DNA of 64,000 nt. Origin: Enterobacter mori. Lineage in GTDB: Bacteria > Pseudomonadota > Gammaproteobacteria > Enterobacterales > Enterobacteriaceae. The position numbers were made by a program, and so were the translations under genes. Position 1 is the stretch's first letter. The number at the start of each line of letters is the position of its first letter. Where the stretch lies: assembly GCF_025244905.1 (NCBI RefSeq), contig NZ_CP104285.1:1860001-1924000 (forward strand), in the 5' to 3' direction. Below the pieces are notes generated by a model. It was given only the letters and a program-made list of their open reading frames with translations, ran no database searches and was not told the origin of the DNA. This document shows, one piece after another, positions 7,282-12,326 of the stretch.

Positions 7282-8325
7282 ATGAGCGAGCAAACCATTC
7301 GTTTAACGCAATACAGCCACGGAGCCGGTTGCGGTTGTAAAATTTCCCCGAAAGTGCTGGAGACTATCCTGCACAGTGAACAGGCGAAGTTTGTCGACCC
7401 GAACCTGCTTGTCGGTAACGAAACGCGTGACGATGCAGCGGTTTATGACTTAGGTAACGGCACCAGCATTATCAGCACCACTGACTTCTTTATGCCGATT
7501 GTTGACAACCCGTTCGACTTCGGGCGCATTGCGGCCACTAACGCCATCAGCGATATCTTCGCGATGGGCGGTAAGCCGATCATGGCGATCGCCATTCTGG
7601 GCTGGCCAATAAACACCATTCCACCAGAAGTTGCCCGCGATGTGATTGAGGGCGGTCGCTTTGCCTGTCAGCAGGCGGGTATTGCCCTGGCCGGTGGTCA
7701 CTCTATCGATGCGCCGGAACCGATCTTCGGCCTGGCCGTTACGGGCGTGGTGCCGACCGAGCGTGTGAAGCGCAACAGTACCGCGCAGGCGGGCTGCAAA
7801 CTGTTCCTCACCAAGCCGCTGGGCATTGGCGTTCTCACCACAGCCGAGAAAAAATCCCTGCTGAAACCGGAGCATAAAGGTCTGGCGACGGAAGTGATGT
7901 GCCAGATGAACCTCGCGGGTGCTGCCTTTGCCAATATTGACGGCGTGAAGGCGATGACCGACGTGACCGGTTTTGGTCTGCTGGGGCACCTGAGTGAGGT
8001 CTGCCAGGGCGCTGGCGTGCAGGCGCAGGTCTGGTATCAGGACGTGCCGAAGCTGCCGGGCGTGGAAGAGTACATTGCTCAGGGCGCCGTTCCGGGCGGT
8101 ACCCAGCGCAACTTCGCCAGCTACGGTCATCTTATGGGCGAAATGCCAGAAGAATGGCGCAACCTGCTGTGCGATCCGCAAACCTCCGGCGGCCTGCTGC
8201 TGGCGGTCACGCCGGAATCCGAAGCCGAGGTCCAGGCGACGGCCGCCGAGTTCGGCATTACCCTGACGGCGATCGGCGAGCTGGTGACCGCGCGCGGTGG
8301 CCGACCGATGATTGAGATCCGTTAA
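7282..8325 (+). CDS. selD: Selenide, water dikinase (selenophosphate synthetase)
   Basis: Makes selenophosphate from selenide and ATP for selenocysteine and selenouridine synthesis. The glycine-rich [10 protein letters not shown] motif carries the essential Cys17 and Lys20, with Cys not Sec at position 17. The 347 residues equal the E. coli length. A GGAG-type ribosome site (ACAGGAGACG) precedes the ATG. topB begins 4 bases after the stop, so the pair is translationally close and probably one transcript. Confidence 0.97.
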
Positions 8326-8329
8326 TTCG

Positions 8330-10243
8330 ATGCGGTTGTTTATTGCCGAAAAGCCGAGCCTGGCCCGTGCCATTGCCGATGTGCTGCCTAAGCCGCATCG
8401 CAAAGGCGACGGCTTTATCGAATGCGGTAACGGGCAGGTGGTCACCTGGTGTATCGGTCACCTGCTTGAGCAGGCGCAGCCGGACGTCTACGACAGCCGC
8501 TACGCCCGCTGGAACCTGAACGATCTGCCCATCGTGCCGGAAAAATGGCGCCTGCAGCCCCGGCCTTCGGTCACCAAACAGCTCAATGTGATCAAGCGCT
8601 TCCTGCATGAAGCGGCTGAAATTGTGCATGCGGGTGACCCGGACCGGGAAGGGCAGCTGCTGGTCGATGAAGTGCTGGACTACCTGGAGCTGGCGCCGGA
8701 AAAGCGCCAGCAGGTGCAGCGCTGTTTAATTAACGACCTCAACCCGCAGGCCGTCGAGCGGGCAATCTCGCGCCTGCGCGCCAACAGCGAGTTTATTCCG
8801 CTGTGCGTTTCCGCGCTGGCGCGTGCGCGTGCGGACTGGCTGTACGGTATCAACATGACCCGCGCGTATACCATTCTTGGGCGTAACGCGGGCTATCAAG
8901 GTGTGCTCTCCGTGGGCCGCGTGCAGACGCCGGTGCTGGGGCTGGTGGTACGCCGTGATGAAGAGATTGAAAACTTCGTCGCCAAAGATTTCTTTGAAGT
9001 GAAAGCGCATATCGTCACCCCAAAAGACGAGCGCTTTACCGCCGTCTGGCAGCCGAGCGACGCCTGCGAGTCATACCAGGATGAAGAGGGGCGTCTGCTC
9101 CATCGTCCGCTGGCCGATCACGTGGTTAATCGCATTACCGGGCAGCCCGCAATCGTCACCAGCTATAACGATAAACGGGAATCAGAACCCGCGCCGCTGC
9201 CGTTTTCGCTTTCTGCACTTCAGATTGAGGCGGCCAAAAAGTTTGGCCTGAGCGCGCAGAACGTGCTGGATATCTGCCAGAAGCTCTACGAAACCCATAA
9301 GCTCATCACCTATCCGCGTTCGGACAGCCGCTATCTGCCGGAGGAACACTTTGCCGGACGCCACTCGGTGATGAACGCCATCGGCGTGCACGCGCCGGAT
9401 CTGCTCCCGCAACCGGCGGTAAACCCGGACACGCATAACCGCTGCTGGGATGATAAAAAGGTGGATGCCCACCATGCGATTATCCCAACGGCGCGCGCCA
9501 GCAGCGTCAATCTGACCGAGAACGAAGCGAAGGTGTACAACCTGGTTGCCCGTCAGTACCTGATGCAGTTCTGCCCGGACGCGGCGTTCCGCAAATGCGT
9601 CATTGAGCTTGAGATCGCCAAAGGCAAGTTTGTCGCCAAAGCGCGTTTCCTCGCGGAAGCGGGCTGGCGCACGCTGCTCGGTAACAAAGAGCGCGACGAG
9701 GAGAACGACGGCACGCCGCTGCCGGTGGTCGCTAAAGATGACGAACTGTTGTGCGAGAAGGGCGAGGTGGTTGAGCGTCAGACCCAGCCGCCGCGCCATT
9801 TCACCGACGCGACGCTGCTTTCCGCGATGACCGGCATCGCCCGGTTCGTGCAGGATAAAGATCTGAAGAAGATCCTCCGCGCCACTGACGGTTTGGGTAC
9901 GGAAGCGACGCGTGCAGGGATTATCGAGCTGCTTTTCAAGCGTGGTTTTCTCGAGAAAAAAGGGCGCTATATCCATTCGACAGAGCCGGGCCGGGCACTG
10001 ATTCATTCGCTGCCGGAGCTGGCCGCGAGGCCGGACATGACGGCGCACTGGGAGTCGATACTGACGCAAATTAGCGAAAAGCAGTGCCGCTATCAGGACT
10101 TTATGCAGCCGCTGGTCGGGACGCTTTATCAGCTGATCGATCAGGCGCGCAGCACGCCGGTGAAGACGTTCAGAGGGATGGTGGCTCCCGGCGGTGGGGC
10201 GAAGAAACCGTTCAAAAAGAAAAAGAGCGCGGCAGCCTCTTAA
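8330..10243 (+). CDS. topB: DNA topoisomerase III
   Basis: Type IA topoisomerase that decatenates DNA during replication and recombination. The N-terminal Toprim domain shows [16 protein letters not shown] and DPDREGQ. The active-site Tyr328 is in [13 protein letters not shown]. The Lys-rich tail ([10 protein letters not shown]) is typical, and the length of 637 is slightly below the 653 of E. coli, with the loss at the C-terminus. An ORF start at 8312 inside selD is rejected because 8330 restores the conserved first residue. Right after the stop begins the 208-bp repeat array. Confidence 0.97.
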
Positions 10244-10358
10244 ACCGTAGGCCGGGTAAGGCGAAGCCGCCACCCGACGAAAAGCCGCTCTGCGGCCTGA
10301 AAAAAGCCCGGTGGCGCTAATGCTTACCGGGCCTACAGGGCGAGAACGCAGCGATAGC

Positions 10359-10446
10359 TTAAATCACACCCTGCCCAATCATCGCATCCGCCACCTTCAC
10401 AAATCCGGCGATATTCGCCCCATCTCGAGGCTGGCGGTCGCCACGC
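10359..10446 (-). pseudogene. gdhA 3' fragment, array unit 1
   Basis: Starts on the minus strand with a piece like gdhA codons for GVATSGLEM, then jumps about 130 bases to the codons for ANIAGFVKVADAMIGQGVI and the stop. 130 is not a multiple of three, so the join is out of frame. It has no start codon or promoter of its own that I can see. Confidence 0.85.
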
Positions 10447-10566
10447 CTTAAATCGTAGGCCGGGTAAGGCGAAGCCGCCACCCGGCGAAAAGCCGCTCTG
10501 CGGCCTGAAAAAAGCCCGGTGGCGCTAACGCTTACCGGGCCTACAGGGCGAGAACGCAGCGATAGC

Positions 10567-10654
10567 TTAAATCACACCCTGCCCAATCATCGCATCCGCC
10601 ACCTTCACAAACCCGGCGATATTCGCCCCATCTCGAGGCCGGCGGTCGCCACGC
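10567..10654 (-). pseudogene. gdhA 3' fragment, array unit 2
   Basis: Same structure as the fragment of unit 1, with the same out-of-frame deletion join. It differs from unit 1 by a C for T in the ACCCGGCG segment and in the GAGGCCGG segment. Confidence 0.85.
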
Positions 10655-10774
10655 CTTAAACCGTAGGCCGGGTAAGGCGAAGCCGCCACCCGGCGAAAAG
10701 CCGCTCTGCGGCCTGAAAAAAGCCCGGTGGCGCTAACGCTTACCGGGCCTACAGGGCGAGAACGCAGCGATAGC

Positions 10775-10862
10775 TTAAATCACACCCTGCCCAATCATCG
10801 CATCCGCCACCTTCACAAACCCGGCGATATTCGCCCCATCTCGAGGCCGGCGGTCGCCACGC
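10775..10862 (-). pseudogene. gdhA 3' fragment, array unit 3
   Basis: Same structure as units 1 and 2 and, as far as I can read, identical to unit 2 in this stretch. It is the copy next to the intact gdhA gene. All three fragments share an A where the intact gene has a G (CACAAA against CACGAA). Confidence 0.85.
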
Positions 10863-10982
10863 CTTAAACCGTAGGCCGGGTAAGGCGAAGCCGCCACCCG
10901 ACGAAAAGCCGCTCTGCGGCCTGAAAAAAGCCCGGTGGCGCTAATGCTTACCGGGCCTACAGGGCGAGAACGCAGCGATAGC

Positions 10983-12326
10983 TTAAATCACACCCTGCCC
11001 AATCATCGCATCCGCCACCTTCACGAACCCGGCGATATTCGCCCCGCGCACGTAGTTGGTTTGCGATGCTTCACCGCCGTACTCCACGCAGGCATGGTGA
11101 ATATCCAGCATGATGTGGTGCAGGCGCGCATCCACTTTCTCTGCCTTCCAGCCGAGACGCGCGGCGTTTTGCGCCATCTCCAGGCCGGAGGTCGCTACGC
11201 CGCCCGCGTTTGCGGCCTTGCCCGGCGCAAATAGCACGCCCGCGTCAAGGAACAGATCCGTCGCGTCGATGGTGGTCGGCATATTCGCCCCTTCCGCCAC
11301 CGCTTTCACGCCGTTGCTAATCAACGTACGCGCAGCCTCGACGTCCAGTTCGTTCTGCGTGGCGCACGGCAGGGCGATATCCACCGGCACGCCCCACGGC
11401 TGTTTGCCTTCCAGATAGGTCAGGCCAAACTCGCGGGCATAATCCGCCACGCGGCCATCGCGGCTGGCTTTGATTTCACACAGGCGCGCCAGTTTCTCTG
11501 CCGTGAAGCCCGCTTCATCCACCACCGTACCGCTGGAGTCAGAGGCGGTTACTACGCGCGCGCCAAACTGCATCGCTTTCTCAATCGCGTACTGCGCCAC
11601 GTTACCGGAGCCGGACACCGCGACGCGCATCCCTTCAAAACCCAAGCCGTGACGCTTGAGCATGGCCTCGGTGAAGTAAACCAGACCGTATCCGGTCGCT
11701 TCCGGGCGGATCAGACTCCCGCCAAACGACAGTCCCTTGCCGGTAAAGACGCAGGCGCTGTTGTTGGAGAGCTTTTTCATCATCCCCGCCATAAAGCCTA
11801 CTTCTCGCCCGCCGACGCCGATATCACCGGCAGGCACGTCGGTGTCAGGACCAAGATGACGCCAGAGTTCGGTCATCAGCGCCTGGCAGAAGCGCATCAC
11901 TTCGCCTTCGCTTTTGCCTTTCGGATCGAAATCGCTGCCGCCTTTCCCGCCGCCCATCGGGAGCGTGGTGAGGGCGTTTTTAAAGGTCTGCTCGAAGCCG
12001 AGGAACTTCAGAATCGACAGGTTTACGGACGGATGGAAGCGCATGCCGCCCTTAAACGGGCCTATGGCAGAGTTAAACTGTACGCGCCATGCACGATTGA
12101 CCTGCACCTGATTGCGATCGTCAACCCATGTCACGCGGAACTGAATAACGCGTTCTGGCTCGACAAGGCGTTCAAGCAGAGACATTTGACGGTAGCGCGG
12201 ATTTTGTTCAAGGAAGGGCCACAGGGTGGTCATGACTTCACGAACGGCCTGCGCGAACTCGCTTTGGTGCGGGTCACGCTGCTGAACATGGGCAAGGAAA
12301 CTTTCCAGAGAGCGTGTCTGATCCAT
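10983..12326 (-). CDS. gdhA: NADP-specific glutamate dehydrogenase
   Basis: Fixes ammonia onto 2-oxoglutarate to make glutamate when nitrogen is plentiful. The 447 residues equal E. coli GdhA. The catalytic lysine lies in PMGGGKGGSDFDPKGKS and the nucleotide-binding fold in VAVSGSGNVAQYAIEKA. The gene is intact, but its last 60 or so bases are repeated three more times downstream, together with its REP elements. It is divergent from ynjH across a 228-base gap that should hold both promoters. Confidence 0.97.
   Translation of the reverse strand: MDQTRSLESFLAHVQQRDPHQSEFAQAVREVMTTLWPFLEQNPRYRQMSLLERLVEPERVIQFRVTWVDDRNQVQVNRAWRVQFNSAIGPFKGGMRFHPSVNLSILKFLGFEQTFKNALTTLPMGGGKGGSDFDPKGKSEGEVMRFCQALMTELWRHLGPDTDVPAGDIGVGGREVGFMAGMMKKLSNNSACVFTGKGLSFGGSLIRPEATGYGLVYFTEAMLKRHGLGFEGMRVAVSGSGNVAQYAIEKAMQFGARVVTASDSSGTVVDEAGFTAEKLARLCEIKASRDGRVADYAREFGLTYLEGKQPWGVPVDIALPCATQNELDVEAARTLISNGVKAVAEGANMPTTIDATDLFLDAGVLFAPGKAANAGGVATSGLEMAQNAARLGWKAEKVDARLHHIMLDIHHACVEYGGEASQTNYVRGANIAGFVKVADAMIGQGVI

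Follow-up and report, generated by a model that had tools for sequence, protein, structure and literature searches.

The window, which is the whole 64-kb stretch of DNA that was analysed, contains the convergent genes topB and gdhA, and a tandem array of four head-to-tail units lies between them. The units start at 10239, 10447, 10655, and 10863, with a period of exactly 208 bp. The genome carrying this array is assembled as one contig of 4,786,692 bases. The features of the locus are as follows.

8312..10243, plus strand: topB (DNA topoisomerase III), an ORF named from annotated matches; 8312 is the first possible start and is unproven
10241-10243, plus strand: topB stop codon, within the beginning of unit 1
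10239..10446, no strand assigned: array unit 1 (208 bp), from the repeat search and unit alignment
10447..10654, no strand assigned: array unit 2, from the repeat search and unit alignment
10655..10862, no strand assigned: array unit 3, from the repeat search and unit alignment
10863..11045, no strand assigned: shared part of unit 4, consisting of the REP-pair spacer and the true gdhA end, from the unit alignment
10247..10278, plus strand: GTAG-headed forward REP of unit 1, read from the sequence; counterparts at +208, +416, and +624
10306..10336, minus strand: second, inverted REP of the pair in unit 1, read from the sequence; counterparts at +208, +416, and +624
10359..10421, minus strand: 63-nt copy of the gdhA 3' end in unit 1, 96.8% identical to the genome's own gdhA end
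10567-10629 and 10775-10837, minus strand: 63-nt copies of the gdhA 3' end in units 2 and 3, 98.4% identical to the own gdhA end
10422..10447, minus strand: 26-nt internal gdhA piece of unit 1, joined after a 130-nt omission; its last base is common to the next unit
10630-10655 and 10838-10863, minus strand: 26-nt internal gdhA pieces of units 2 and 3, from sequence alignment
10983..12326, minus strand: gdhA, the intact NADP-specific glutamate dehydrogenase gene (447 aa), an ORF named from annotated matches
11046..11175, minus strand: 130-nt stretch of gdhA missing from units 1-3, from sequence alignment
11176..11201, minus strand: gdhA counterpart of the 26-nt piece, from sequence alignment

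On the plus strand, each unit runs from the topB end with its stop through a 115-bp spacer with the inverted REP pair to 63 nt complementary to the gdhA end, followed in units 1-3 by 25 nt of internal gdhA, or 26 nt if the C common to the next unit is counted. Only the first 183 bp of the fourth copy match the other units, and intact gdhA follows thereafter. Tandem Repeats Finder delimited the array as 10239-11045 (period 208, 3.9 copies, 98% matches, score 1558); the sole other row in the window had a score of 56. Over the 208 positions, units 1 and 2 differed at five, units 1 and 3 at four, and units 2 and 3 at one, and unit 1 was identical to unit 4 across the first 162 bp. The unit alignment and the repeat search confirmed the layout given by an earlier, sequence-only reading of this DNA, namely four units spaced by 208 bp, each with a REP pair, the fourth of which runs into the whole gdhA gene. 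That reading had also estimated a gdhA tail of about 60 bases, a deletion of about 130 bases, and a 26-base piece; these estimates were borne out, the exact lengths being 63, 130, and 26 nt.

Two joins hold the gdhA-derived pieces in place. At the outer join, gdhA DNA abuts TTAAACC of the topB stop with an overlap of one C, and at the inner join the overlap is CC (2 nt). The word CTTAAACCGTAGG, with which the duplicated segment opens (13 bases, spanning the topB stop and the start of the REP), had been said to occur at every unit boundary and to be a possible recombination point. It was present exactly at three of the unit starts, whereas CTTAAATCGTAGG was found at 10447; a role as the recombination point was not upheld, since the gdhA side of the join has only one C in common with it.

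The REP pair folds into one long hairpin. The predicted folding energy of the spacer was -59.5 kcal/mol on the gdhA strand (z -4.0 versus shuffles) and -51.5 kcal/mol on the topB strand (z -3.0 versus shuffles). With its GTAG-headed inverted palindromic pairs and their tandem reiteration with flanking DNA, the array shows two features of a REP/BIME tandem cluster. When the genome itself was searched (40 of 266 candidates scored), only the array matched full length, and at least 55 short REP-like matches to it (31-80 bp), single or in twos, were dispersed elsewhere. In BIMEs of the BIME-1 type, an IHF site lies at the REP pair. No IHF-like site was found in 10239-11045 at one mismatch or fewer to an IHF consensus; hence, neither assignment to BIME-1 nor the earlier proposal of IHF binding through the REPs was supported. 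No promoter-like or terminator-like consensus sites were found inside the array, the sole terminator-like site detected being at 11117-11132, inside gdhA. A known structured RNA in the array was likewise unsupported, because an Rfam search of 9900-11400 gave nothing at the gathering score.

Next to these features we set the gap between topB and gdhA in relatives. Among 60 congeneric genomes, 59 matched the region and 58 had both genes on one readable stretch; the region search gave no match in G054, so that this genome contributed no locus. The gap table consisted of 77 rows, namely 79 loci minus L027 and L148, in which a topB match was absent, and it includes the array's own locus (L089) and one repeat (L009/L094). 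An extra gdhA tail in the gap was observed in none of the 58 genus relatives at E<=1e-3, where gaps below 60 bp were skipped as too short for the 63-nt tail. Six relatives with a full REP pair from the topB stop (L090, L091, and L093-L096) had gaps of 114-117 bp with one unit each, so the unit number differs between species, four in this assembly versus one in these relatives (one genome per species). Among nine species compared, the nearest in topB was G034 (95.2% over 1150 bp), whose gap is a single 116-bp REP-pair spacer, and the start of the array's spacer was also nearest to that of G034. A search for the junction in other Enterobacteriaceae, as had been proposed, found the inner join in 1 of 392 family genomes, the array-bearing genome itself, with three occurrences (three or fewer mismatches allowed; zero for the reversed-pattern control). 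That sample holds five genomes of the genus, the own genome included, and the coverage of the genus comes from the 58 gaps. In the plasmid collection, no record had one place covering 80% of the query.

Both joins were encountered a second time in a metagenome. A minus-strand junction ORF of 40 aa runs from the REP of one unit across the outer join into the 26-nt piece, and onward across the inner join as far as the gdhA stop. When it was searched against about 5.8 billion sequences, one metagenome protein of 231 candidates, P0001, passed E<=0.001; the plus-strand junction ORF gave no candidate in the protein search. P0001, from a metagenome contig of 4507 bases, was 90% identical to the ORF over all 40 residues, and one of the four differences concerns the start residue only (M as typed versus V). 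Two residues of its gdhA-derived end are different in resident GdhA. Because P0001 spans all 40 residues, both joins are encoded in the metagenome contig, and because it includes the outer join, a second unit start adjoins it there. As judged from these sequences, the recurrence of both joins favours common descent over an error of a single assembly.

Nine positions vary across the three truncated units and the intact copy. At unit positions 163 and 197, the truncated units have A and C, which are absent from the own gdhA and from the eight relatives aligned. C197 was found in none of the 77 loci compared, and A163 (units 1-3) is also present in the gdhA of L101. A163 thus need not have arisen within the array and may be an older allele. 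At positions 39 and 83, units 1 and 4 carry A39 and T83, which are the derived bases, and units 2 and 3 carry G39 and C83, which match the full REP-pair spacers of L090, L091, and L093-L096 (L107 is gapped at 39). Exchange or conversion between the outer copies would account for A39 and T83 most simply, rather than plain serial duplication, the argument concerning two sites.

The bases at positions 189 and 204 are G and C in the truncated units and C and T in the resident gdhA. G189 and C204 are also found in G034 and G010; C and C occur in L092, L095, and L096, and the resident combination of C and T recurs in L093 and L094. Over the whole 26-nt piece, units 2 and 3 showed 1 mismatch to L090, L098-L101, and L108 versus 3 to resident gdhA, and unit 1 showed 2 mismatches to L090 versus 4 to resident gdhA. 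At these two informative sites, therefore, the broken piece has a sister-species allele that is absent from the resident gdhA. Furthermore, the resident gdhA differed from that of G034 at 20 of 227 nt in the stretch 193-420 nt from the gene end and at 44 of 1117 nt elsewhere (Fisher p 0.003, with borders picked after seeing the data). This part, 11176-11402, is unusually distant from the sister species and may represent a short recombined stretch. A tree of 59 rows covering 57 genus relatives was built from gdhA nt 219-620, within which the divergent patch lies; there, the own gene stood beside a 15-member clade with G034, at a fork with a modest support of 80/72.

Taken together, these findings suggest, with a probability of about 0.75, that the locus is a near-neutral tandem array that was born by illegitimate recombination at the REP-bearing spacer and multiplied by homologous exchange. 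In the first step, about 338 bp, with one end at the topB stop and the other 219 nt into gdhA from its end, would have been duplicated through a one-base join. The extra copy would then, or in the same event, have lost 130 nt at a join sharing CC. Unequal exchange over about 180 bp of homology could subsequently have produced three truncated units, and exchange or conversion between copies could have homogenised parts of them. Overlaps of 1 and 2 nt argue for illegitimate recombination or template switching over REP-REP homology; at its far end, within gdhA, the duplicated segment has no REP, so that the first join was not made by REP-REP homology. A tandem duplication between gdhA and the topB end that lost a piece and then expanded had been suggested in the sequence-only reading, and the unduplicated state seen in relatives agrees with it. 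Its view that the expansion was recent was only partly borne out, as both the metagenome copy and the inner gdhA piece point to some sequence change after the joins had formed.

A different origin of the outer join would be cleavage by a REP transposase (TnpA-REP/RAYT) at C|T outside the REP and its joining to gdhA DNA, the array being a by-product of REP mobility. According to PMC8266576, the E. coli TnpA-REP cleaves at C|T on the 5' or the 3' side of REPs, and the T is the base to which strand transfer joins DNA. The outer join has a site of this type: gdhA DNA adjoins the T of a C|T that precedes GTAG by seven bases. In addition, a Y1_Tnp search of the sister species G034 gave a partial match (59 bits, model positions 2-76 of 121). 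C|T is, however, a common dinucleotide, and the inner join is without it. Moreover, a search of the own genome for Y1_Tnp (PF01797) gave nothing at E<=0.001, with E. coli as a positive control, and matches occurred in 8 of 61 genus genomes, G034 among them, where a match could be a RAYT or an IS200-type transposase. We consider this origin very unlikely, and a RAYT as present-day driver or a RAYT-mobilised REPIN was not supported, as the cognate Y1_Tnp is absent from the own genome at that threshold. The exact 208-bp spacing might instead raise the suspicion of a repeat wrongly expanded during assembly, and the number of units as assembled could still be wrong; an artefact is nevertheless highly improbable, since the units can be told apart at diagnostic sites, the genome is assembled as a single contig, and the metagenome assembly encodes both joins in somewhat different sequence.

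The sister-type bases of the 26-nt piece, its fewer mismatches to relatives than to the resident gene, and the divergent gdhA patch make it possible, though tentatively so, that the array and its flank were imported from another Enterobacter lineage by homologous recombination, or that the resident gdhA was partly replaced after the array had formed. The 26-nt piece has just two informative sites, and the nearness of topB to G034 among the nine compared, like that of the spacer start, is expected under vertical descent and thus speaks against import. This explanation is compatible with an illegitimate duplication and does not exclude it. The sister-type allele may reflect partial gdhA replacement, arrival of the array by recombination, or plain change at two sites. 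It is doubtful that the broken gdhA pieces represent a fossil record of an allele lost by the resident gene, as well as its conversion partner, and that the array is a copy-number locus that segregates and is exchanged horizontally.

The array probably does little. A REP downstream of gdhA in E. coli reportedly affects mRNA stability, according to the title of Merino et al. 1987. By analogy, the REP pair adjoining gdhA (unit 4) probably still serves as the 3' end structure of the gdhA mRNA, a role that would fall to the single pair in relatives. The extra copies, located past this pair, are expected to add little. It would be conceivable that the extra REP pairs and gdhA-tail copies regulate gdhA through mRNA 3' stability, convergent read-through, or antisense to the gdhA end, for which the E. 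coli report, the strong hairpins on both strands, and the complements of the gdhA end that topB read-through RNA would contain could be adduced. Such a functional expansion is unlikely, given that the array has no promoter-like or terminator-like consensus, Rfam, or IHF-like match inside and that none of the 58 genus relatives has such an array.

Bacterial minisatellite or VNTR loci are near-identical long direct repeats in a spacer, the number of which is expected to vary. The array resembles them in consisting of such repeats, a likeness drawn from one genome, with the difference in unit number seen between species only. REP-associated tandem duplications form a category of the older literature; like them, the duplicated segment has one end within 8 bp of a REP, and unlike them, its other end lies inside gdhA without a REP. 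GTAG-type enterobacterial REP/BIME clusters, as described in PMC3733652, reiterate in tandem with flanking DNA. The array shares with the clusters described there the GTAG-headed inverted pair arranged head-to-tail with a flanking segment, and departs from them in that its flank is the broken 3' coding end of the adjacent gene, which forms a chimera with two joins next to the intact copy. Repetition of REP dimers together with flanking DNA is thus known already, and the array belongs to that kind. Judging by titles, none of 14 papers listed by a literature search deals with the topB-gdhA spacer. The capture of a gene end, the allele of sister type, and the recurrence in a metagenome make the array a tidy example. 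Expansion of a repeat-bearing spacer in this way is rare yet readily understood. The locus illustrates cleanly how a REP spacer flanked by convergent genes expands and takes coding DNA along, the order of events being marked in its own sequence. If the unit number varies among strains, the locus would be usable for strain typing, and unequal exchange and conversion could be measured there next to a whole gene copy.

Other changes were observed in the gap of relatives. Tandem expansions without gene tails occurred in L012 (51 bp x 4.8), L102 (108 bp x 4.4), and L129 (93 bp x 3.9); by eye, the repeat unit of L129 differs from the REP pair of the array. These expansions fit the proposed account of the array. 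Loci L127, L138, and L148 carry insertion-sequence-like DNA. In G048 and G031, this is a segment of about 1.4 kb in the gap, with similar ends and, in each genome, a single 384-aa ORF that resembles a transposase by eye. In G002, gdhA is flanked by a similar end in the terminal stretch of its contig, and topB is on another contig. The gaps of L121, L124, L131, L135, and L137 are 5.6-8.6 kb long with several long ORFs, which in L124, L135, and L137 resemble, by eye, a PTS permease, a sulfatase, and a radical-SAM maturase. The topB-gdhA gap looks like an insertion hotspot in the genus. The long gap of L131 has a direct repeat of about 1042 bp with 91% identity. Compared with the own gene in 25 rows, the last 33 coding nt of topB differed by 3-18% in six loci, which include loci whose gap starts with a REP of the array type, and by 55-70% (ungapped) in the others.
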